Shown here piece after piece: positions 40,123 to 64,000 of a stretch of DNA of 64,000 nt. The DNA lies in assembly GCA_019116285.1 (NCBI GenBank), contig DXBX01000082.1:62001-126000 (forward strand). The letters run 5' to 3'. A program made the position numbers and the translations under genes. Origin of the DNA: Candidatus Bacteroides merdigallinarum (lineage in GTDB: Bacteria; Bacteroidota; Bacteroidia; Bacteroidales; Bacteroidaceae). The notes under the pieces were generated by a model, which saw nothing but the letters and a program-made list of their open reading frames with translations, did no database searches and was not told where the DNA came from. Numbering within the stretch: the first letter of the stretch is position 1; each line of letters opens with the position of its first letter.

Positions 40123-41382
40123 TCAATCCACTTTACGCTTGAAGAACCAGCGTTCATTGAACGTGATGCCGATGCAAAGGCGCAACGTGTTTTCATCGAG
40201 GAAGTTCGCACGGCTGCCCTGGGTACGGACATATTGTCCGGACACACTGACCATCGAACGGGTACGAGGCACTGGCAGACCGAAACCGAAGCTCACACCA
40301 TACTCCTTGGCTGCACGCAGGCCATCAATCTTATAATAAGGTTTGGAATAATAGCCGCCCACCCGATATTGGATACGAGCCAAGTAGTTACGTCCGATGG
40401 GATTAGGAATGAACTCTGCACCCAAAGACAGTTTCGCACGCTTGCTGAACATATCTTTATGACCTTCATAAGATACATCGTCCCAATTCTGCAACATACC
40501 ATCTATAGCTACCGTCAGCCGTTTGTCGTAGACATAGGCCAAGCCCAGGCCCCACGTGGTAGGGATGCCAAAGTTTCCTTCGATAGGTGTCTGGCTGACC
40601 GTAGCGTTCGCGTCAGTTCCTGTCTGGCGATACTCGGTGGCATCGGCACTCAGGTTATGTCCCGGCGAGAATACGGCACCCAGCGTCAAAGCGTGTTTCT
40701 TTCCGAAATCCTGCGTATATTGCGCGCCGATATCCAACTTATAACTCTTGACACTCAAATCTGTAGAGATGATGGTGGAGAACATCTGCGCGCTGTAAGG
40801 GAAGGTCAATGTCCGGGCATGTGTCACCCCGCCCCACAGATAAGAGATATTCGCACCTACCGAAAGATTCTTGAGAATCTTGAAGCCGGCACCTATATAT
40901 AACTGGTGCAGACCGCCTTCGCCGTTATAGGTAACGGTGCTGGAAGCCGTCGACGACTCAGGATTCTCCCGAAACTCGCTCAGGTTATAACCCACATTGG
41001 CGTAGGGAAGCAAGCCCAGGCTGATGCCGGCCCACTTCGCAGCGCGAAACTGCATGGTGATATAGTCGAAGCTGGAATTCCTTGCATTCATCTTCACCGT
41101 ACCATTGCTGAAGTTGGTGTTTTGCAGCGAGATGCCGCCATCGAAAATAAAAGTGAGCGAATCTACCGCGGAGTAAGAAGCCGGATTGGCAAAATTCACC
41201 AAGTGCTTATCCCGCAAGGCGTAAGCCACACCTCCCATACCCTTACTGTTGGCTGACCCTTGATCGGCCAACTGTCCGTAACCATACCGTGTGTACGGCG
41301 AATTGGTATTGTTCTGGGCCATTGCCACACCGGATAACATCGTGAGCACGAACGCCCAAAGCGTATGTCTGAACTTAATCAT
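40123..41382 (-). CDS. Outer-membrane beta-barrel protein, function unknown
   Basis: A 419-residue protein with a signal peptide (MIKFRHTLWAFVLTMLSGVAMAQ). The mature start NNTNSPYTRYGYGQLADQG, with SKGMGGVAYAL and NFANPASYSAVDSLTF, resembles the N-terminal hatch of FadL/OmpP1-type barrels; alternating strands follow to the aromatic end NERWFFKRKVD. It is first in the lptC operon. Transport of a hydrophobic compound is possible but not shown. Confidence 0.85.
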   Translation of the reverse strand: MIKFRHTLWAFVLTMLSGVAMAQNNTNSPYTRYGYGQLADQGSANSKGMGGVAYALRDKHLVNFANPASYSAVDSLTFIFDGGISLQNTNFSNGTVKMNARNSSFDYITMQFRAAKWAGISLGLLPYANVGYNLSEFRENPESSTASSTVTYNGEGGLHQLYIGAGFKILKNLSVGANISYLWGGVTHARTLTFPYSAQMFSTIISTDLSVKSYKLDIGAQYTQDFGKKHALTLGAVFSPGHNLSADATEYRQTGTDANATVSQTPIEGNFGIPTTWGLGLAYVYDKRLTVAIDGMLQNWDDVSYEGHKDMFSKRAKLSLGAEFIPNPIGRNYLARIQYRVGGYYSKPYYKIDGLRAAKEYGVSFGFGLPVPRTRSMVSVSGQYVRTQGSRANFLDENTLRLCIGITFNERWFFKRKVD

Positions 41383-41641: not shown

Positions 41642-41687
41642 AGAAACGGATCTCCTGTCCTCCCTTGGGAACAGGAAATCCGTTTCT
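41642..41687 (-). terminator. Terminator after the caspase gene
   Basis: Stem 41642-41651 with 41678-41687 (agaaacggat/atccgtttct), continued after one mismatch by tcctgt/acagga, and on the minus strand followed by a T-rich run (TTTTTATCC). It lies just past the caspase stop codon. Confidence 0.75.
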
Positions 41688-41712: not shown

Positions 41713-44511
41713 TCAGTTACCAGCAGCCGGTTGTACGCCAGCAGCCTCCTCTGGCAATGGTGTACGCAGCTGCACATTCTCCCAATCAGTCCACATGGGA
41801 GCCACCATATACTGCGGATCTTGCGGTCTGCCCATCTGCGTAGTGGCAGTTTTCACATTCTTTGTGGTTTGGTCAAACAATTGCTTCAGCGTCAAATTGC
41901 CTTTCGCGTCCTGGATGGCCTTAATCAAGAAATAGGTATAATAACCCTGCTTTTTCTCGTGATAGACACTGGAGAACTGATCGCCACTGCTCGACGCGAA
42001 ACTCAACGTGTGACCCTGCGGAAGGCCCATCTTGGGAACTACGCGTACGCCTTTCAGGCCTTCCGGCGTTTTCCCGCTCTTGGAAGCACCACTGAAGCAG
42101 GCATCCAAGAAGACATAGGCGCCCTTGACGGGATAAGTAGCCAATTGCTTGTATAGATTTGCCAGCGAGATGCCCAAACGGATGTTCTTGCCCGAGATGT
42201 CCACCGGCAAGAGGTAAGGCTCCTTGGTGACCTCGTAGTTGTTGCCATGACCGGAATAGTAGAATATCAATTCGGCCTCGGGATCCACACTGGCCATGCT
42301 TACCAACCAGCCCAGCATCTCATGCATGATACCGGCCGTCGCATTGGAAATGACCTTGATTTGCTTGTCCGGCACACCGAAAGTCCGCTTACAGTATTCG
42401 CCGAAAACATAAGCGTCGTTTGCCGCATAGGGCACGTTAATCTCGGCATTGTTTCCCGCGAGGCTGTAGTTCTCGTTGCCGATGACCAGCGCATAACGGT
42501 GAGGATTGGCGGCTCCTACCGGTACGTTCTTCAATAACTCACTCTCGAAACCGAAATGGAAGTCCTTGGCAGCCACCGTAGGTCTCTCCACATCACCATC
42601 AATCGTGATAGGACCGTCGCTAGCCAGATATTCATCCAGCTTCACCTTGTAAGCCTCATTCAGGTTGGACGAATGGGTGTCCTCCGTCACACTTACCATC
42701 ACGGCCACGGAGTCTCCATCGAAACGGTTGTTCACCAGGAAGCCGTAGTCCACAACCTCCACCTCACCGGGAGCAATGCTGTCCAGAATCATCTCCGACT
42801 GCTCCGTGGGGAAGATGTTGCGCGGCAACTTGAAGTTCACCTTCACATTGCGGGCTGTCTTGGCGCCCAAGTTCTGCAAGGCCAGCTTCAGCTGACCGCC
42901 ATTGTTGCGCGTGATGGTGGAACCTTCATTGGCCACAAACATATAGTCGGCCACCTGCAGGCGAGGCATGGCATATTCCAGCGTGTTGACCACCAGCTCG
43001 GCGGGATTGGCATCGAAGCCGTTGGCTTCGAATGCGTAGATATTAATCTTGGCCAAGGTGGTAGGCATATCCTTCTTCACCAGATAGCGGAAGGTGTACT
43101 GCTTGGAAGCACCGGCCAGGATATTACCGCCATCCAATTCGCGCGGACCATCGAAAAATTCATCATAACCCTGCTGTTCGGAGAAGCGGAGACGGAGATT
43201 ATAGGCATCGCCCTTACCCCGGTTCTCAATGGTAAACTGTATAGCAAAGCTTTCGCCGGCATCAATCACCTTATTATTATTACCATCTATGAAGCTGTCG
43301 ACGCGAATCACCAACATGGCAGGTTCCAAAGGCACCGGCACCGGAGCCGCCTTGGGCTGGGTGGCAGCCTCCGGCTTCTGCATCTCTGCCATATAAGTTT
43401 TCAAGCGTTCGGGGAAGGTGTCGAAGGAAGCCCCGTCTGCCAGAATCTGAGACAGCACCTCGTATTCCGGCTTCATCTGCATGAAATCATACACACCGGC
43501 CAGTCCCTGCATGTACATCTTAGCCGTGGGATCTTTCTCCAAGATTTTCAAGAACAAATCCTTGGCATCCAGCAGATAGCCCGAGGCACGCTGACGGATG
43601 AGGGCGTACTCAGTGTCGTTGGCAATCTTCAGACCACTGTTGGCAATCTCCGTGGCCACATTAAAGTTCGCACGCGCCAAGCCGGTCATATACTCGAAAT
43701 TGTCGGGTTCCAGCGCATAGAGGCGCTTGAAGATTTCCAAAGCTTCCTCGTTCTTCTTCTGAATCAACAGGATACGCGCCTTGATAGGCAACACCTGCAT
43801 ATTGTTCGGATCAATCTCCAGGATACGGTCAATGGCGGACAACAGCTTCGGCATATTGTTGGTGGCAATATGCACATTCACCAGATTGTAGAGGAAGTCC
43901 AGCGAAACGGGATACTTGGTGATGGCCTCCTCCAGGATCTTCTCCTGCTCCACATAGTTCTTTTGGGCCATGTATATCATGTTCAGATAGACGTAGCAGT
44001 CCTTCTCCTGCGTCTTGTCGCCGATACGGAGGTATTCCTTGAAGAAGTCGGTAGCCTGCGTGTACTTCTGCTGATTGTAGGCAGACTGGGCAGCAAAGTA
44101 GACCACCACCGCATAGTTGGAAGCACGCGGCAACAGTTCATCCTGGAAGATCTTCAACTTGGGCAGCTCAATGTAAGCGGCCGCAAAGTCAAGCCCCTTC
44201 ACCGGATCCTGCTGGCCGGAATAGTAGACAGCTGCGTCGAGTAAGCTGGGATACATGTTGCGCAAGCGGTTCTTGGCACCATTCAAGTATGACTGATTAT
44301 TGGGAGCCGACAGGACTTTCACATATTCCCGATAACTCTCCAGCAAGTAGGCATACATGGCGTCGGGGGTTCCCCCTTTGTCCCGCTCGCTTTCAAAAAG
44401 CACAAATTGCTGGTTGGCACGCTGAGAAACCGAAGCGGCATCTTGAGCCGCCACCTTCGCGCATACCACCAACAACAGCAAAAAAATCGTTAGTGTGAAT
44501 TTACTTTTCAT
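41713..44511 (-). CDS. Exported TPR protein with C-terminal caspase domain
   Basis: A 932-residue protein with a signal peptide (MKSKFTLTIFLLLLVVCAKVAAQ). Residues about 90-390 are tetratricopeptide-like helices (AAQSAYNQQKYTQATDFF, ALEIFKRLYALEPDN). After a proline-rich linker, residues about 400-640 are two beta-rich CARDB-like modules (AGESFAIQFTIENRGKGDAYNL, GGQLKLALQNLGAKTARNV). The C-terminal caspase/peptidase C14 domain (about 680-900) starts RYALVIGNENY and has the dyad His755 in FYYSGHGN and Cys805 in FLDACFSG, both intact. The order of domains and export signal imply a periplasmic or surface cysteine protease regulated by protein contacts. It follows the WD40 gene on the same strand. 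Confidence 0.9.
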   Translation of the reverse strand: MKSKFTLTIFLLLLVVCAKVAAQDAASVSQRANQQFVLFESERDKGGTPDAMYAYLLESYREYVKVLSAPNNQSYLNGAKNRLRNMYPSLLDAAVYYSGQQDPVKGLDFAAAYIELPKLKIFQDELLPRASNYAVVVYFAAQSAYNQQKYTQATDFFKEYLRIGDKTQEKDCYVYLNMIYMAQKNYVEQEKILEEAITKYPVSLDFLYNLVNVHIATNNMPKLLSAIDRILEIDPNNMQVLPIKARILLIQKKNEEALEIFKRLYALEPDNFEYMTGLARANFNVATEIANSGLKIANDTEYALIRQRASGYLLDAKDLFLKILEKDPTAKMYMQGLAGVYDFMQMKPEYEVLSQILADGASFDTFPERLKTYMAEMQKPEAATQPKAAPVPVPLEPAMLVIRVDSFIDGNNNKVIDAGESFAIQFTIENRGKGDAYNLRLRFSEQQGYDEFFDGPRELDGGNILAGASKQYTFRYLVKKDMPTTLAKINIYAFEANGFDANPAELVVNTLEYAMPRLQVADYMFVANEGSTITRNNGGQLKLALQNLGAKTARNVKVNFKLPRNIFPTEQSEMILDSIAPGEVEVVDYGFLVNNRFDGDSVAVMVSVTEDTHSSNLNEAYKVKLDEYLASDGPITIDGDVERPTVAAKDFHFGFESELLKNVPVGAANPHRYALVIGNENYSLAGNNAEINVPYAANDAYVFGEYCKRTFGVPDKQIKVISNATAGIMHEMLGWLVSMASVDPEAELIFYYSGHGNNYEVTKEPYLLPVDISGKNIRLGISLANLYKQLATYPVKGAYVFLDACFSGASKSGKTPEGLKGVRVVPKMGLPQGHTLSFASSSGDQFSSVYHEKKQGYYTYFLIKAIQDAKGNLTLKQLFDQTTKNVKTATTQMGRPQDPQYMVAPMWTDWENVQLRTPLPEEAAGVQPAAGN

Positions 44512-44564
44512 CTCTGTATTTTAAGTTTCGCATATTAATTCTTGGCAGGATAGTTTACGCAGTC

Positions 44565-44611
44565 AAGGAGTTAAGACATCAGAATGTAAATTCTGACTCT
44601 CTTAACTCCTT
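44565..44611 (-). promoter_or_regulatory. Two-stem hairpin between the WD40 and caspase genes
   Basis: Outer stem 44565-44575 with 44601-44611 (aaggagttaag/cttaactcctt), inner stem 44579-44584 with 44591-44596 (tcagaa/ttctga). No T-tract follows on the minus strand, so read-through into the caspase gene is expected; it may tune or process the message. Confidence 0.6.
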
Positions 44612-44633
44612 CCACCGCTATAACTTAATCCAG

Positions 44634-46811
44634 TTATTGTGCCTGGAAAGCATCCACAATGACGAAACCTACATTGATTCTACGGAACTCGCCGCCACGC
44701 TCCTTGGCTACTTCTACATGGAATTCGTATTGGTTATCCGTATTCTGCAACGTAGTCACGTTCTTTTCAATATAATCCTTCACGCCGGCGGCACGCAGCA
44801 AAGCCAACTGCTCATTGCTCGTGATGCCTGTAGCCTTCGTAACCGTGATGTTGTCCAGGTTACCATCCTTATAATAAGGTTCGTCTACAAATTCGCCGTA
44901 TTGGTTGTTGTAGGCGATGCGTCCGCGGATAGGACTGGCATCGGCAGAACCGGTGATGATGACCTTCACCTGCTTGCCCTCGGACAAATACTTGGAGAAG
45001 TCACCCTCGAAAGCATCCTTGATAATCTTCATCAGCGACATGGCGGCATTGGAACGCTCGATGTTGTAACCGCCGGAGGGGAAGTCTTCCTTAGCAGAGA
45101 ACTCCTTATTGATTACCTCATACTGATAGCTGACTTTGTAATTGTAAATCTTGTTACCATTGGCATCCACGTCGGGCAATACCTCCGTATTCACGTCAAT
45201 CTGGGTATTCTCGGTAATCAGCTGCTCCTGCTTCTTCTCTTCCACCACGGCCTGCTTGATTTCCTGCAACTGCACTTCCTCGCGGCTGGCCTGCTGCATG
45301 ATTTCCAAGGGCACGAAGTTTTCGTCCTCTTCCAGTGCTGTCAGCTTGGTGCGGCCGATATTGTCGTAGATATAGACCTTGTTGGTCGTCTCGTTCAACA
45401 CTTCCACGTAGGCCAACTCGAATTCGTCGTTCTCATTGAGGACATACACAGCATTGCTGAACTTCATCTTTCCGTCCTTGAAGTCACCCAACTCATTCTC
45501 GGGCACCTCGATGGCAATGGAGGGCAACGAATTAAAGCCGATGTTCAGCTTGCTGCCCGCTGCATCATACTCACCCACGAACGGGTTTTCCATTGCCAAG
45601 CGGTCGCCTGCCAATTCCGTAGCCACTTCCTGTGCAAAGAGTTGCTGTTGCTTCAAGCGTGTCTCGTCGTTCACACGGATGGCATACTCCTCCATGGACT
45701 CACCGTCCATCATCTTCACCCACTCGTTCATGCGGGCATCCACTTCCTTACCCAGCAACTTGCCGTAGAAGGGGTTCAATCCGTTGGCATCCCAGAAGAC
45801 GAGGCTGTTCGGGCGGTTGGAAATCAAGAACACCTCACTATTCTGACGGTTGATGAAGAAGCGGGCATCCTTCACGCCGCCCATCTTCTCTTCCAGAGTC
45901 TGCTCGACGGTTCCGTTGCGCAGGTTGAGCACCACGATGGCATTGCCATCCTTGACCACACTGACATACTTGCCTTCCGGATGGAAGGAGGGAGCAGCCA
46001 GCTTGCCACCCAACTGGTCGAAGTTCTTCACCTTCTCCCATGTCTTGGTATCCCAAATGCTCAGGCAATTGTCATCTGTCACCACGGCCAACTGAGAAGC
46101 ATCGGCCGAGAAGTCCAAGCCGAGCACATTGGCTTCCATAGGGATGGATTTACGCAATTCTTGAGTCTGTACATTCCAGATGTCTATGTTCTTGCCCGTG
46201 CCGGCTGCAATGAAATAGTTGTTCGAGCTCATTGCCAATGCCGTGGCCAACGCCTTGCCTTGGATATAGGCCTGCGGCTGATAGCCTCTGGTCTCATAGA
46301 TGATGATTTCACCCAACGAGTTGGAAGCAACAAACCGACGCGCATCCGGAGCGTAGCACATGGCTACCGGCATGATCTTTCCTTTCTGCAAGTCCTTTAC
46401 TTGGTCTTCGGTCAGGTTTGCCGACGAGGTCAACGGAAGGACAGTTCTGTCTTTCAATCCCTTACGCTTATCCTTCAGTTCGAACATTTTCCGATTGCGA
46501 TCGCGGAAAGAATAAATCGTGATATTCTTGTCATCACGAATCAAGGCCAGCGAACTACCCGTAGGGTTGAACGCAATCTTGTCTATATCAGCAATATCCA
46601 CAATAGCAATATCACGCAAGGTGTACAGCCCGCCGTCCTCGGTCAAGAAGGCCGTACAGAAGGTTGTATTCGCAAATGCAGTGATGTCTTTGTCGGAGGC
46701 GAAATCACGTTTCACCTTTACTTGTGCCATAGCCTGCTCTCCTACCAGAGCTGCAGCAAAAAAGAACGTACCACCCATGGCAAGGCGGTACCAGCGATTT
46801 TTCTTTTTCAT
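44634..46811 (-). CDS. Exported WD40 beta-propeller protein with OmpA-like C-terminus
   Basis: A 725-residue protein with a signal peptide (MKKKNRWYRLAMGGTFFF...EQAMAQ). Residues about 60-380 are WD40-like blades (KIAFNPTGSSLALIRDDKNITIYSF, VLGLDFSADASQLAVVTDDNCLSIWD, APSFHPEGKYVSVVKDGNAIVVLNL). A beta-rich middle follows, then an OmpA-like end (about 600-725) with VIITGSADASPI and NEQLALLRAAGVKDYI, which could touch peptidoglycan. It is the first gene of a pair with the caspase protein. The ATG at 46811 opens the signal peptide. I do not recognise a named family for the whole protein. Confidence 0.85.
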   Translation of the reverse strand: MKKKNRWYRLAMGGTFFFAAALVGEQAMAQVKVKRDFASDKDITAFANTTFCTAFLTEDGGLYTLRDIAIVDIADIDKIAFNPTGSSLALIRDDKNITIYSFRDRNRKMFELKDKRKGLKDRTVLPLTSSANLTEDQVKDLQKGKIMPVAMCYAPDARRFVASNSLGEIIIYETRGYQPQAYIQGKALATALAMSSNNYFIAAGTGKNIDIWNVQTQELRKSIPMEANVLGLDFSADASQLAVVTDDNCLSIWDTKTWEKVKNFDQLGGKLAAPSFHPEGKYVSVVKDGNAIVVLNLRNGTVEQTLEEKMGGVKDARFFINRQNSEVFLISNRPNSLVFWDANGLNPFYGKLLGKEVDARMNEWVKMMDGESMEEYAIRVNDETRLKQQQLFAQEVATELAGDRLAMENPFVGEYDAAGSKLNIGFNSLPSIAIEVPENELGDFKDGKMKFSNAVYVLNENDEFELAYVEVLNETTNKVYIYDNIGRTKLTALEEDENFVPLEIMQQASREEVQLQEIKQAVVEEKKQEQLITENTQIDVNTEVLPDVDANGNKIYNYKVSYQYEVINKEFSAKEDFPSGGYNIERSNAAMSLMKIIKDAFEGDFSKYLSEGKQVKVIITGSADASPIRGRIAYNNQYGEFVDEPYYKDGNLDNITVTKATGITSNEQLALLRAAGVKDYIEKNVTTLQNTDNQYEFHVEVAKERGGEFRRINVGFVIVDAFQAQ

Positions 46812-46958
46812 AAACGTGTGTATAAAATCATTATTTGCTTGCAAATATAAAAATTATTTCTCTACATCACATACAAAAATTTGGTCTTTTTCCACTATTT
46901 GGTCCATTTTGCTCCTTACCTCTAAAAAATTGAGGACTAACAGGTAAAAAAACGGTTC

Positions 46959-57834: not shown

Positions 57835-60135
57835 ATGAAACTTTACATATTTCTTGTGGTGGCGGCATTGTGCGCCTGCCTGCCCACCACCGCATTTGCC
57901 GAAGACCTGAAGGATTCGGACGCCAACATCGTGGGACACGTGTTGGAGAAACATACACAAGAACATTTATCCTATATCACCGTGGCCTTGAAGGGTACGA
58001 CCATCGGCACACTGACCGACCCCACGGGACACTATTTCCTGAAGAACCTGCCCGAAGGAGAATTCGAGATGCAGGTCAGCGCCATAGGCTACAAGACCGT
58101 GACGCGCCACGTCGTACTGAAGAAGGGCGTCACACTGGAAGAGAACTTCGAGCTGGAAGAAGACCTCGTGGCCCTGGATGGCGTGGTGGTGACGGCCAAC
58201 CGCAACGAGACCACCCGACGCATGGCGCCCACGCTGGTCAACGTGATGGACTTCAAGCTGTTTGAACAGACCAACTCCACCACCCTGGCACAAGGTCTGA
58301 ACTTCCAGCCGGGTGTCCGCGTGGAGAACAATTGCCAGAACTGCGGCTTCCAGCAGGTGCGCATCAACGGTCTGGACGGCCCCTACACGCAGGTGCTGAT
58401 AGACTCGCGTCCGGTGTTCAGTGCCTTGGCAGGCGTATACGGACTGGAGCAGATTCCCGCCAACATGATTGAACGCGTGGAGGTGATGCGCGGAGGCGGT
58501 TCGGCCTTGTTCGGCGCATCGGCCATTGCAGGCACCATCAACATCATCACCAAGGAACCCCTGCGCAACTCCGCCCAGCTGGGACATACCCTCATGGGTG
58601 TGGGCGGGCTCTCCACCTGGGACAACAACACCACGCTGAATGCCTCGCTGGTGACGGACAACCACAAGGCCGGCATCTACGTATTCGGACAGAACCGCGC
58701 CCGCAGCGCCTTCGACTATGACGGGGACGGCTTCACGGAGCTGCCCAAGCTGCACAACCAGACAGTGGGCTTCCGCTCGTTCCTCAAGACCAGCACCTAC
58801 TCCAAGCTGACCTTCGAGTACCACCACCTGCAGGAATTCCGTCGGGGTGGCAACCTGCTCCATCTCCCGCCCCACGAGACGGACATCACCGAGCAGACCG
58901 AGCACAGCATCAACAACGGAAGCCTCAAGTTCGACTACTTCTCGCCCAACGAGAAGCACCGCCTGAGCGTCTATGCCTCCATGCAGCACATCCACCGCAA
59001 CAGCTATTACGGGGGCGACCACTCGCTGGATGCGTACGGCTCGACCAAGGACCTGACCTGGGTGATAGGCTCCCAATATGTCTACCACTTCGACCGCTGC
59101 CTCTTCCTGCCGGCCGACCTGACCGGCGGCGTGGAGTATAACGAGGACGCCATGCACGACAACATGTGGGGCTATCACCGCACCATCGACCAGACGGTGC
59201 GCATCATGGGAGCTTTCCTGCAAAACGAATGGAAGAACGAGCAATGGAGCTTCCTTGTGGGCGGACGCCTGGACAAGCACAACCTGCTGGACCACGTCAT
59301 CTTCAGCCCGCGTGTCAACCTGCGCTATAACCCGACCAAAGACATCAACCTGCGCGCCAGCTATTCGGTGGGCTTCCGCGCCCCGCAAGCCTTCGACGAA
59401 GACCTGCACATCGAGAACGTGGGCGGCAACGTGTCCATGATTCAACTGGCCGAAGACCTGAGCGAGGAGAAGTCCCGCAGCTTCAGCCTGTCCGCCGACA
59501 TGTACCGCCGCTGGGGAGGCTTGCAGGCCAACCTGTTGCTCGAAGGCTTCTTCACCGATTTGTCCGACGTGTTTGCCCTGCGCGAACTGGGCACGGAGAA
59601 CGGCATCCTGAAGAACGAGCGCTACAACGAGAAGGGCGCCCGCGTCTATGGCGTGACCCTGGAAGGCCGCCTGGCCTGGCTCAACATGCTCCAGCTGCAG
59701 GCGGGAGTCACCCTGCAAAAGGCCGAATACAAGGAAGCCCGCCAATGGAGCGACGACGAGACGGTGCCCCTGGAGAAGCGCATCTTCCGCACCCCGGGCA
59801 CCTATGGCTACATGACCCTGACCTACACCCCGCTGAAGCCCCTGAGCATCGCCCTGTCCGGCACCTACACGGGCAGCATGCTGGTGGAGCACCGCGCCGG
59901 GTATATCGAGAGGGACCGCGCCGACCGGACGCCCGACTTCTGGGAGATGAACCTCAAGGCATCCTACGACTTCCAGGTCTACAAGGACATCACGCTCCAG
60001 GCCAGCATCGGCGTGCAGAACCTGTTCAACGCCTACCAGAAGGACTTCGACCAAGGCAAGCTGCGCGACTCGGGCTACATCTACGGCCCCGGACTGCCGC
60101 GCTCCTACTTCGCAGGGGTGAAGCTGAGCTACTGA
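57835..60135 (+). CDS. TonB-dependent outer-membrane receptor
   Basis: A 766-residue receptor: signal peptide (to about residue 22), a carboxypeptidase-D-like domain (about 30-110, IVGHVLEKHTQEHLSYITVAL), the plug (about 115-230, DGVVVTANRNETTRRMAPT, VRINGLDGPYTQVLIDSRP, RVEVMRGGGSALFGASAIAG) and a C-terminal barrel ending AGVKLSY. The plug has NCQNCGF, a Cys pair seen in a Bacteroidetes group of receptors. No SusD partner is present, so polysaccharide import is unlikely; a metal or metal-chelate ligand fits the His-rich neighbour. Confidence 0.92.
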   Translation: MKLYIFLVVAALCACLPTTAFAEDLKDSDANIVGHVLEKHTQEHLSYITVALKGTTIGTLTDPTGHYFLKNLPEGEFEMQVSAIGYKTVTRHVVLKKGVTLEENFELEEDLVALDGVVVTANRNETTRRMAPTLVNVMDFKLFEQTNSTTLAQGLNFQPGVRVENNCQNCGFQQVRINGLDGPYTQVLIDSRPVFSALAGVYGLEQIPANMIERVEVMRGGGSALFGASAIAGTINIITKEPLRNSAQLGHTLMGVGGLSTWDNNTTLNASLVTDNHKAGIYVFGQNRARSAFDYDGDGFTELPKLHNQTVGFRSFLKTSTYSKLTFEYHHLQEFRRGGNLLHLPPHETDITEQTEHSINNGSLKFDYFSPNEKHRLSVYASMQHIHRNSYYGGDHSLDAYGSTKDLTWVIGSQYVYHFDRCLFLPADLTGGVEYNEDAMHDNMWGYHRTIDQTVRIMGAFLQNEWKNEQWSFLVGGRLDKHNLLDHVIFSPRVNLRYNPTKDINLRASYSVGFRAPQAFDEDLHIENVGGNVSMIQLAEDLSEEKSRSFSLSADMYRRWGGLQANLLLEGFFTDLSDVFALRELGTENGILKNERYNEKGARVYGVTLEGRLAWLNMLQLQAGVTLQKAEYKEARQWSDDETVPLEKRIFRTPGTYGYMTLTYTPLKPLSIALSGTYTGSMLVEHRAGYIERDRADRTPDFWEMNLKASYDFQVYKDITLQASIGVQNLFNAYQKDFDQGKLRDSGYIYGPGLPRSYFAGVKLSY

Positions 60136-61100
60136 TAGAACCCGTTCGTCTCCGTCGTCTCCAGCAGCGGCTCCCGGTTGATGTAAGGCAGGATGCGCGT
60201 GGCAAAGAGCAGGCGGCGGAGGTTGAACTCGTCGAACAAGGGGTCGGCGGGGTCGAAGCTGCTGACGTGCACGTCGCCCTGCGAATGGATGAAGCGACGG
60301 TCGCCCAGGTACAAGGCCACGTGCGTCACCCGCTCCTTGCGGTCCGCCGTGGCACGGTGGCCGAAGAAGACCAGGTCGCCCGGCTGCAGGTTGCCGAAGT
60401 CGGGGGCGATGTCGATGCGGCGGCCCACCCGTGCCTGCTGCGAGGCGTCGCGCGGGATGATGATGTCGTGCATGAAGAGGACGGTGCGCACGAAGCCGCT
60501 GCAGTCCACCCCCTTCGACGAAGTGCCGGCCCACAGATAGGGGACGCCCGTCAGCGTACGGGCCGTGTGGAGGATGCTCTCCGCGTCCTGCTTCAAGCCC
60601 TGCCGCCACTCGTGCTCGGGCCTGCCCAGGGAGCGGTGGAGGTAGCCCGTCCGGCCGTCGGGATAGGAGACACGGTAGTAATGGCCCTTCCGCCCCTCCC
60701 AGCGGAGGCGGTCGCCCGCCACCACGTCGGACACGGGCAGCGCGTCTTCATGCGGCTCAGAGCGGACAAAGCCGTAGTGGGCGGTCACCACCACCTTCTC
60801 CGCACGGTTCCAGGCGGCGAGGCTGTCGCGGCTCATGCGGCGGACGGCCACGGGATGCACCCAGCCCTCGTAGCGGTCCGGGGTGCGGATGCGCAGCCAG
60901 GTCTGTTCGCCCAGCACCTGCACCGGCATCCCCAGCAGGCCCTGGGTAATCATCTCGGACGAGAAGTCCGGCTCGGACCGCATATTGGCCACGGAGAGGT
61001 TCAACACGCCATACGCCCGCACCGTGTCGGGGCTCTGCGCCACCGCCGGACCGGCCAGGGCGAGCGCGGCGGACAGGAGACAAGAGATCAGTCTTTTCAT
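60129..61100 (-). CDS. NlpC/P60 cell-wall hydrolase with SH3 domains
   Basis: A 323-residue C40 peptidase with a signal peptide (MKRLISCLLSAALALAGPAVAQ). Two bacterial SH3 domains (about 30-175; NMRSEPDF and FVRSEPHED) precede the catalytic domain with GVDCSGFV (nucleophile Cys), VTHVALYLG (His) and FIHSQGDV. It cuts peptide bonds of murein stem peptides. Its stop overlaps the TonB receptor gene end by 7 nt on the opposite strand. The ATG at 61100 opens the signal peptide. Confidence 0.93.
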   Translation of the reverse strand: MKRLISCLLSAALALAGPAVAQSPDTVRAYGVLNLSVANMRSEPDFSSEMITQGLLGMPVQVLGEQTWLRIRTPDRYEGWVHPVAVRRMSRDSLAAWNRAEKVVVTAHYGFVRSEPHEDALPVSDVVAGDRLRWEGRKGHYYRVSYPDGRTGYLHRSLGRPEHEWRQGLKQDAESILHTARTLTGVPYLWAGTSSKGVDCSGFVRTVLFMHDIIIPRDASQQARVGRRIDIAPDFGNLQPGDLVFFGHRATADRKERVTHVALYLGDRRFIHSQGDVHVSSFDPADPLFDEFNLRRLLFATRILPYINREPLLETTETNGFYQ

Positions 61101-61124
61101 CTTACGCGATATTAGTTGGACGCG

Positions 61125-61132
61125 CAAAGGTA
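61125..61132 (-). promoter_or_regulatory. Probable -7 box for the NlpC/P60 gene
   Basis: Reads TACCTTTG on the minus strand, 24 nt before the ATG at 61100. Confidence 0.5.
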
Positions 61133-61194
61133 CGAAAAGAATCCGAAACCCAAAGTTTCCGCCGCACAGGCTTAGCGGAAGGCGATATTTTTCT

Positions 61195-61202
61195 TACTTT
61201 TG
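61195..61202 (+). promoter_or_regulatory. Probable -7 box for the DEAD-box helicase gene
   Basis: TACTTTTG, 35 nt before the ATG at 61238. Confidence 0.5.
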
Positions 61203-61237
61203 CACGCGAATTGCGAGACATACATTATTACACCTAT

Positions 61238-62512
<1,275 letters not shown>

Positions 62513-62596
62513 GCATACGAATCCATAGGAAAATGGGGCAGACGGGCCGGGACAGATACGGCTATCAGCCTCATTTTCATTACCCGGTCGTGAAGA

Positions 62597-62700
62597 TTAT
62601 CTTTGAAAGATAAAAAAATTATCTTCGGAAGATATAAAATTTATCTTCGGAAGATAAAAAAATTATCTTTATAAAGATATAAAATATATCTTCGGAAGAT
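62597..62700. repeat. 22-bp tandem array of small palindromes, 5 copies
   Basis: Palindromes start at 62597, 62619, 62641, 62663 and 62685, an exact 22-nt period. The core is TTATCTTCGGAAGATAA; two copies have the centre changed (ctttgaaag, ctttataaag) with both arms changed together, so pairing is kept. It ends 30 nt before the promoter of the HU-like gene. The rest of the 300-nt gap shows no gene. Confidence 0.9.
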
Positions 62701-62730
62701 GAAAAACTTATTTTCTAAAAATATTATGCC

Positions 62731-62738
62731 TATCTTTG
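62731..62738 (+). promoter_or_regulatory. Probable -7 box for the HU-like gene
   Basis: TATCTTTG, 77 nt before the ATG at 62815 and just after the palindrome array. Confidence 0.55.
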
Positions 62739-62814
62739 CAATATAATTAGCACAAACAGTAGTATAATCACAGCCCGAAACGAGGCTTTCGCAAGGGCTT
62801 AAACGAACGAGAGT

Positions 62815-63570
62815 ATGAGCAGGAAAAGAAGACCGGAGTGGAAAGTGCGGATGCGCAAATCCAATTACGAAGTAACCCTCGGGCAGGCCGTGCCCGTGGT
62901 GCATCACCCCCGCAGCTACACGCTGGAGGACATCGTGGCGCTGATGGATGCGCACCTGTCGCTGCCCGTGGCGCGGGAGACGCTGGAGATGTGCGTGAAG
63001 ATGTTCATGGAGCAGGTGGAAAACATGCTGCTGGAGGGGAGCATCGTCAACCTGCCCATCGGGCGGCTGACCCCGGCCGTGACGGGCACGTGGGAATACC
63101 AGAACCGCTTCGACGAGAAGGTGCGGGCGCAGAACAAGGCCGTCGTCAACTATGCCATGGGGCCGCACCTGACGCGGCTGCTGGCCAACCCGCTGCTGCA
63201 CGACATGGAGGCGAACATCGGGAGCCGCCTCCATATAATGAGCGTGAAGGACCACGCCAGCGGCACGGAGAACGGGCGGCTCACCCCCGGCGGCATCATC
63301 ACCGTGCGCGGACAGATGCTGCTGATGAACGGCGACGACCCGCGGCGCGGCCTCCGCCTGCTGCGGGCGGACACGGGGGAGGAGGCGGCGCACCTGAGGC
63401 CGGAGGACTTCGCCCTGTGTACCCGCACGCGCATCGTGGCGCAGCTGCCCGCCACGCTCCCCGCCGGGACGTACCGCCTACAAATAATAAGCCAGTGCAC
63501 CACCAACCCCAAACCGCTGAAGGCGGCGGCAGAGTACCTTTTCGGCAGTGAGCTGACGGTCGGCGAGTGA
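62815..63570 (+). CDS. HU/IHF-like DNA-binding protein with C-terminal DUF4469-type domain
   Basis: A 251-residue protein. Residues about 15-120 match the HU-like DNA-binding module of Bacteroides (YEVTLGQAVPVVHHPRSYTLEDIVALM, NMLLEGSIVNLPIGRLTPAV). Residues about 155-245 form a DUF4469-type beta domain (GRLTPGGIITVRGQMLLMNG, ARIVAQLPATLPAGTYRLQI-like strand). Proteins of this build are common in Bacteroidales and their role is unclear. The base composition is high in G+C like its neighbours. Confidence 0.85.
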   Translation: MSRKRRPEWKVRMRKSNYEVTLGQAVPVVHHPRSYTLEDIVALMDAHLSLPVARETLEMCVKMFMEQVENMLLEGSIVNLPIGRLTPAVTGTWEYQNRFDEKVRAQNKAVVNYAMGPHLTRLLANPLLHDMEANIGSRLHIMSVKDHASGTENGRLTPGGIITVRGQMLLMNGDDPRRGLRLLRADTGEEAAHLRPEDFALCTRTRIVAQLPATLPAGTYRLQIISQCTTNPKPLKAAAEYLFGSELTVGE

Positions 63571-63621
63571 CAGCACTTGCAAATCCCGGCAAAGGCTGTG
63601 TGTCATTTCGGGAAAAAACCG

Positions 63622-63629
63622 TACCTTTG
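63622..63629 (+). promoter_or_regulatory. Probable -7 box for the ThrE-like gene
   Basis: TACCTTTG, 32 nt before the ATG at 63661. Confidence 0.5.
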
Positions 63630-63660
63630 CGCCCGTTTTCAGGATAAACCCATCAAGACA

Positions 63661-64000
63661 ATGCACACAAAAAACGAACTAAAGGACATCGCCCACTTCC
63701 TGCTGGAGTATGCCGGCCGGCTGATGGGCTCGGGGGTACACACCTCGCGGGTGGTGCGCAACACGTGCCGCCTCGGTCAGTCGCAGGACGTGGAAGTATC
63801 CGTGTCCGTCATCCAGAAGAATCTTATCGTCAACGTCCGCGACCCGGAGAGCCGCGAGGCGTACACGGAGATGGCCGACACGCCGGCCTTCCCCATCAGT
63901 TTCGAACTCAACGCCGAGTTGAGCGCCCTGAGCTGGGACGCGCACGACCAACGGCTGCCGCTGTCCGCCGTGCGCGAGCGCTATGCGGAGATTGTGGCGC
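63661..64000 (+). CDS. Threonine/serine exporter family protein (partial, N-terminus only)
   Basis: The first 113 codons of a gene that runs off the window. The start MHTKNELKDIAHFLLEYAGRLMGSGVHTSRVVRN is the cytosolic N-terminal domain of ThrE/DUF1212 exporters, which precedes several membrane helices not seen here. Family members export threonine and serine or organic acids. A second ORF for a paired small subunit (ThrE_2 type) may follow outside. Confidence 0.85.
   Translation, partial: MHTKNELKDIAHFLLEYAGRLMGSGVHTSRVVRNTCRLGQSQDVEVSVSVIQKNLIVNVRDPESREAYTEMADTPAFPISFELNAELSALSWDAHDQRLPLSAVRERYAEIVA

Follow-up and report, generated by a model that had tools for sequence, protein, structure and literature searches.

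What do two adjacent genes for exported proteins, one a WD40 protein with an OmpA-like end (here called W) and the other a TPR protein ending in a caspase domain (here called C), accomplish together in Candidatus Bacteroides merdigallinarum? The pair lies in a 64,000-nucleotide stretch of contig DXBX01000082.1, the whole of which we refer to as the window. Most discussion of prokaryotic caspase homologues treats them as death or defence effectors acting in the cytoplasm. Our preferred answer, to which we assign a probability of roughly 0.57, is that W and C make up one envelope device, i.e., a caspase-type protease of the periplasm that is tethered to peptidoglycan and has its own anchor or sensor subunit. 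If this holds true, envelope proteolysis by a conserved exported caspase and its wall-anchoring partner would become directly accessible to genetics.

The gene pair and its transcription

The W gene (44634..46811, minus strand) encodes a 725-residue protein with a predicted signal peptide, a WD40 propeller, a middle domain (residues about 360-555), and an OmpA-like C-terminal domain (residues 556-722; codons 44646..45146, minus strand). The Pfam scan recognized the propeller as WD40-type, and it spans about residues 27-344 of the model. The C gene (41713..44511, minus strand) encodes a 932-residue protein comprising a predicted signal peptide, a TPR region (residues about 26-379), a CARDB/Ig-like region (residues about 395-625), and a C14 caspase domain (residues about 668-917; codons 41758..42516, minus strand, cover residues 666-918) with His755 and Cys805. 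The ORFs and their domains confirm the initial annotation, which had described adjacent same-strand genes for two exported proteins.

The genes are arranged head to tail with W first and are separated by 122 nt. A TAnnTTTG box (46842..46849, minus strand), which we take to be the Bacteroides -7 consensus, begins 38 nt ahead of the W start codon; the full -33/-7 pattern was not found, and the W-C gap holds no TAnnTTTG box. Across related loci, such a box precedes W in 36 of 75 cases (13.6 expected) and C in 6 of 72 (8.0 expected). A strong intrinsic terminator of 19 pairs with a T tail (41642..41687, minus strand; fold z -6.06) directly follows C and precedes a bamG-like gene. Given the box before W, the lack of one in the gap, and the terminator after C, W and C most simply form one transcription unit and the bamG-like gene another. 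Much of the W-C gap, which is longer in the window than in most of 72 pairs, is filled by a stable RNA hairpin without a T run (44548..44631, minus strand; -39.1 kcal/mol, z -5.86) that could set the W:C ratio. Rfam returned no match at gathering scores.

The bamG-like neighbour (40123-41382, minus strand), itself followed by LptC-type and CNNM/GldE-type genes, reaches 380 bits with the BamG model NF053685, and the bamG region also lies past C in 3 of 10 close loci (L111, via an opposite-strand ORF, L112, and L117). The pair could accordingly be imagined in BAM-linked quality control, a role that we regard as very improbable. The terminator stands between C and the bamG-like gene, four of the other seven close loci (L114, L122, L124, and L185) run about 3 kb past C without bamG while three end within about 1 kb, and a text search of two papers on the Bacteroidota BAM turned up neither caspase nor WD40 (PMC12578637, PMC12611786). 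With the terminator in between and bamG in only 3 of 10 close loci, we rejected this link.

The caspase domain and known caspase assemblies

The C14 domain of C scores 79.6 bits in Pfam against a curated cut-off of 21.4 (3.8e-22). His755 and Cys805, described as intact in the initial annotation, are both present in the alignment and are invariant in 21 of 21 and 65 of 65 aligned C sequences, the larger set also keeping the neighbouring residues. The C model contains a caspase fold, which a fold search places close to metacaspase-4 and MALT1; its pTM is 0.43, and the arrangement of domains inside C is not reliable in it. A proteolytically silent caspase domain serving as a scaffold would be compatible with the lack of a known activity in the family, but is hard to reconcile with the invariance of His, Cys, and their neighbours in 65 of 65 sequences, and we consider it highly unlikely. 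Active-site residues conserved to this extent make proteolysis the likely output of the W-C pair.

D803, two residues before Cys805, is likewise invariant in the 65-sequence alignment and is presumably the counterpart of the acidic S1 residue in metacaspases with basic specificity. According to an excerpt of the source, cleavage after a positively charged residue is a property of orthocaspases as a class (PMC6426788). By analogy, C is probably a caspase-type cysteine protease that cleaves after Arg or Lys. Shortly upstream of the caspase domain, many C homologues carry a conserved S-D-V-D-x-x-I-P-like motif, perhaps a latch or processing site.

With its C14 domain, His-Cys dyad, and caspase fold, C resembles the prokaryotic caspase homologues (Peptidase C14; orthocaspases or bacterial metacaspases). 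It differs from them by its apparent export and by its coupling, in trans or in cis, to a domain that probably binds peptidoglycan. The initial annotation had compared the pair with Apaf-1, and WD40/TPR-regulated caspase assemblies do share repeat domains beside a caspase. Beyond the repeat types this comparison was not supported. No NB-ARC/NACHT or CARD domain occurs among all 21 Pfam matches of C (E<=1) or among the best 25 of 29 Pfam matches of W (down to E 0.022), and, in contrast to Apaf-1, the pair is probably extracytoplasmic. An Apaf-1-like assembly was therefore rejected, no ATPase or CARD domain having been found among these matches of either protein.

The initial annotation had also stated that no system of this make-up was described. 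That held for the full-text literature matches listed, none of which described a W-C system as judged by title or start of abstract in a search covering few subscription papers; no paper was found mentioning the B. fragilis locus tags that were tried. The statement nonetheless needs amending, since excerpts of a 2012 survey by Asplund-Samuelsson already count 14 of 217 predicted metacaspase operons with OmpA domains, an observation that was not followed up (PMC3501461). The same excerpts rank WD40 and TPR with the domains that most often accompany bacterial metacaspases (PMC3501461).

Conservation and genomic setting of the pair

Using patterns in the W C-terminal domain, we kept 79 loci from 88 relatives. 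The caspase gene is present in 73 of them, directly after W and on its strand in 72 (intergenic distance -116 to 300 nt) and fused to W in one. The six loci without a visible caspase comprise four truncated by contig ends (L128, L167, L171, and L182) and two with tandem W genes (L154 and L162), in which no caspase occurs in 3.1 and 2.4 kb downstream, respectively. The tandem WD40-OmpA-like genes number two in Candidatus Symbiothrix dinenymphae and three in Bacteroidia bacterium MS499-82, and a TPR-containing gene without a caspase match comes next in L154.

Genome samples gave a similar picture. In the relatives set, 6 of 41 genomes encode a W-type protein and five more have only weak WD40 matches; all six W genomes carry a TPR-caspase gene, the pair of one (G019) being split by contig ends. 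Three others (G008, G034, and G040) lack W but encode related caspase domains (E 1e-38 to 1e-47). In the family sample, the W C-terminal domain was detected in 19 of 301 genomes (E<=1e-30), 16 with a caspase gene and 3 with both domains in one protein, and 27 of the 43 caspase-positive genomes have a related caspase domain without W (E<=1e-30). Twenty regions were fetched, of which 19 hold complete pairs in the same order and strand and the twentieth is the split case. Non-conservation of the pairing, named beforehand as an outcome that would speak against the initial proposal, thus did not occur, either in the 73 of 79 loci or in the relatives and family samples.

Farther out, the OmpA-like profile of W was found in 1 of 395 genomes of the phylum sample (the window's own) and in 10 of 257 of the order sample, suggesting that this domain is rare outside Bacteroidales. 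Seven order-sample genomes have a strong W-domain match: four with the pair, two with a fusion, and one (G885, L251) with a lone 267-residue OmpA-like protein and no caspase in the 12 kb fetched. The pair is present in culturable gut species, including Bacteroides fragilis, B. cellulosilyticus, B. salyersiae, and Phocaeicola plebeius. One contig (JAMPEL010000005.1, L176) carrying it is filed under a Roseburia metagenome-assembled genome; since all 78 others carry Bacteroidota labels, this is probably a binning error.

A patchy distribution (19 of 301 family genomes) is what might be expected if the pair were an envelope suicide or defence system, in which W would sense damage or phage entry and unleash C, and the cell would die. 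Caspases do act as effectors in defence systems, and the PADLOC 'caspase' model matches C over part of the model (2.4e-8). However, the pair adjoins the same cca gene in 18 Bacteroides and Mediterranea loci, which looks like stable inheritance, and C appears to be exported whereas the defence caspases known to us are cytosolic. When viral contigs were scanned with W as the only query, a search that extends no further than close relatives, 0 of 11 stretches were confirmed, and a phage origin was rejected on this result. We consider the suicide or defence role unlikely.

The surroundings of the pair also raise the possibility that C serves to process particular secreted or surface proteins. Two gene families near the pair, downstream of C (L141-L175), are candidates for such clients: F6, a protein combining a CarboxypepD_reg domain with a probable small barrel, and F9, consisting of varied surface proteins. 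Of the 79 loci, 19 have F6-type and 13 have F9-type genes, yet neither type was found in the 18 cca-type loci, and F9 is a mixed cluster. Dedicated processing of these proteins is, in our judgment, rather doubtful.

The OmpA-like domain, its fusions and the accessory genes

An anchor role for W depends on its C-terminal domain. OmpA-like domains follow the element order beta-alpha-beta-alpha-beta-beta, and the W C-terminal model, read by eye, runs strand-helix-strand-(hairpin)-helix-strand-strand. Homology to OmpA did not emerge from sequence: Pfam gave W no PF00691 match down to E 0.022, a weak one (0.032) turned up in L105 among five W-type proteins scanned, and neither the PDB profile search nor hhalign against the OmpA-type proteins of this genome produced a match. 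Fold searches used the whole W model, and the matches listed were all propellers. D624, N666, and R673 are nevertheless invariant in 20 of 20 sequences, in 60 of 60 propeller-type sequences, and in 31 of 31 that include barrel-type proteins and one fusion. By motif, not by structural alignment, this trio matches Asp576, Asn584, and Arg591 of PorE; the Asn-to-Arg spacing is 7 in both proteins, and the stretch from Asp to Asn is 34 residues longer in W. The PorE side chains hydrogen-bond a peptidoglycan fragment, according to excerpts of the structural report (PMC7192894). We consider peptidoglycan binding by the W C-terminal domain to be likely.

In the same excerpts, PorE (PG1058) has a WD40 propeller and, at its C-terminus, an OmpA-like domain carrying the Asp/Asn/Arg trio (PMC7192894), so that W might be read as a PorE-like wall anchor of type IX secretion. 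SprA is indeed present in two of the six pair genomes of the relatives set, but was not found (TIGR04189) in the other four, of which three are 63-84% complete and one (G014) 99%. Unlike PorE, W shows no N-terminal TPR among its listed Pfam matches and no lipobox by eye, pairs with a caspase, and occurs without SprA. A part in type IX secretion is extremely improbable, and the link was rejected on the four genomes in which SprA was not found.

The envelope device that we favor gains from natural rearrangements, since fusions and an N-terminal swap already show which parts belong together. OmpA-like and caspase domains are found in one protein in six cases, i.e., L187 (985 residues) among the 79 loci, L056 (763), L057 (787), and L058 (748; also L267) in the family sample, and L250 (456) and L252 (733) in the order sample. 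Four of them (L187, L056, L057, and L058) visibly carry the His and Cys motifs of the caspase. In L187, whose taxon label is Bacteroidetes bacterium only, SBBP propeller repeats (6.4e-33) precede the two domains. The middle domain of W is also homologous to the pre-caspase region of 37 shorter C proteins (hhalign 98.3%, E 2e-14), all of a non-CARDB type distinct from the CARDB-type C of the window.

In 8 of the 72 loci used for trees, and in L101-L107, an outer-membrane beta-barrel replaces the propeller at the start of W (PF13505, above cut-off in two of four scanned), while the rest of W (middle and C-terminal domains) and the adjacent caspase gene are kept. Such a swap argues for an envelope location and, along with the N-termini, supports the initial placement of both proteins in the periplasm or at the surface. 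The barrel loci form one clade in the W-domain tree (support 0.995) and in the C tree, where the grouping is unsupported (0.025). Both trees also gather the C proteins of at least 900 residues (34 loci, L153 excluded) into a single clade, with supports of 0.908 and 0.807. The correlation between W and C distances, 0.80, is what linked genes would give.

The pair and its domains stood up, but the initial picture was incomplete, as it included neither the fusions nor a wider set of accessory genes. At least one of three such genes, encoding a DUF4384 protein, a transglutaminase-like protein, and a small exported protein, was detected by profiles near the pair in 40 of 79 loci, a count that covers fetched stretches with flanks of at most 6 kb. 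The three had emerged from clustering the flanks of the 79 loci. None occurs in the fetched stretches of the 18 cca-adjacent loci. In the window's genome, all three lie together at a second locus on another contig (L189, 6381-9450). PF14326 was above cut-off in both DUF4384 proteins scanned. The transglutaminase-like protein has Pfam matches below cut-off (0.017 and 0.048) in two of three scanned, and its Asp-Cys-Glu-Asp and His residues are invariant in 15 of 15 sequences. The small exported proteins are of two kinds without a Pfam name. PDB profile searches gave nothing useful and NCBIfam no above-cut-off match for any of the three.

Co-occurrence extends beyond the pair itself. The transglutaminase-like gene is present in 6 of 6 W genomes versus 8 of 35 others in the relatives set, and in the family sample in 19 of 19 W-domain genomes versus 76 of 282 others (Fisher p 8e-11, ignoring kinship) and in 39 of 43 caspase-bearing genomes versus 56 of 258 (p 2e-18, ignoring kinship). 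The link is weaker in the order sample, where the gene occurs in 5 of 7 strong-match genomes, 0 of 3 weak-match genomes, and 60 of all 257. Twenty-nine of 57 caspase places lie within 10 kb of it, 13 of them in W-less genomes. DUF4384-type genes accompany fusions too, directly after the fusion in L252 and clustered with small exported and transglutaminase-like genes in the L058 genome (L267). Other Bacteroidales caspases have signal-peptide-like starts or BspA-type LRR_5 N-termini (L061, L067, and L084); by eye, L077 and L079 are LRR_5-type caspases as well. The transglutaminase linkage and these other caspases suggest a general exported-caspase module with exchangeable sensors. Tentatively, Bacteroidales might thus run a class of extracytoplasmic caspase machines that signal outside the cytoplasm and take proteolytic decisions at the cell wall. 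Their sensors (WD40 propeller, outer-membrane barrel, SBBP propeller, or BspA-type leucine-rich repeats) would be exchangeable and coupled in trans or in cis, and the caspase would work with the DUF4384 protein and the transglutaminase-like enzyme.

LbcA is a TPR protein, and LbcA-CtpA is, to our knowledge, the closest functional parallel to the W-C pair; LbcA is also among the Foldseek matches of C, at rank 25. In Pseudomonas aeruginosa, according to excerpts of the source, this partner recruits a periplasmic protease to the outer membrane and keeps cell-wall hydrolases under control (PMC6050968). As in our proposal, a partner protein would position an envelope protease, a likeness in way of working only, given that CtpA is a C-terminal processing protease and C a C14 protein, and that partner and protease are separate in LbcA-CtpA.

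In the envelope device as we picture it, C would be exported to the periplasm and act as a cysteine protease through His755 and Cys805. W would be its dedicated partner, gripping peptidoglycan through diaminopimelate with its C-terminal domain, while the propeller, or the outer-membrane barrel in one lineage, would sense or recruit something at the envelope. The TPR and Ig-like parts of C may bind W, clients, or both, and envelope proteins would thereby undergo regulated proteolysis or processing at the cell wall. The DUF4384, transglutaminase-like, and small exported proteins, encoded beside the pair or at a second locus, would assist. The W-type genes lacking a caspase (L154, L162, and L251), the many W-less caspase domains, the missing sequence homology to OmpA, the weaker accessory-gene link in the order sample, and the cca-adjacent loci devoid of accessory genes speak against this picture.

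Elsewhere in the window, G+C climbs from about 0.50 to 0.60-0.65 across positions 58001-64000, where the ORFs look ordinary by eye and presumably encode a TonB-type receptor, an NlpC/P60-like protein, and a DEAD-box helicase.
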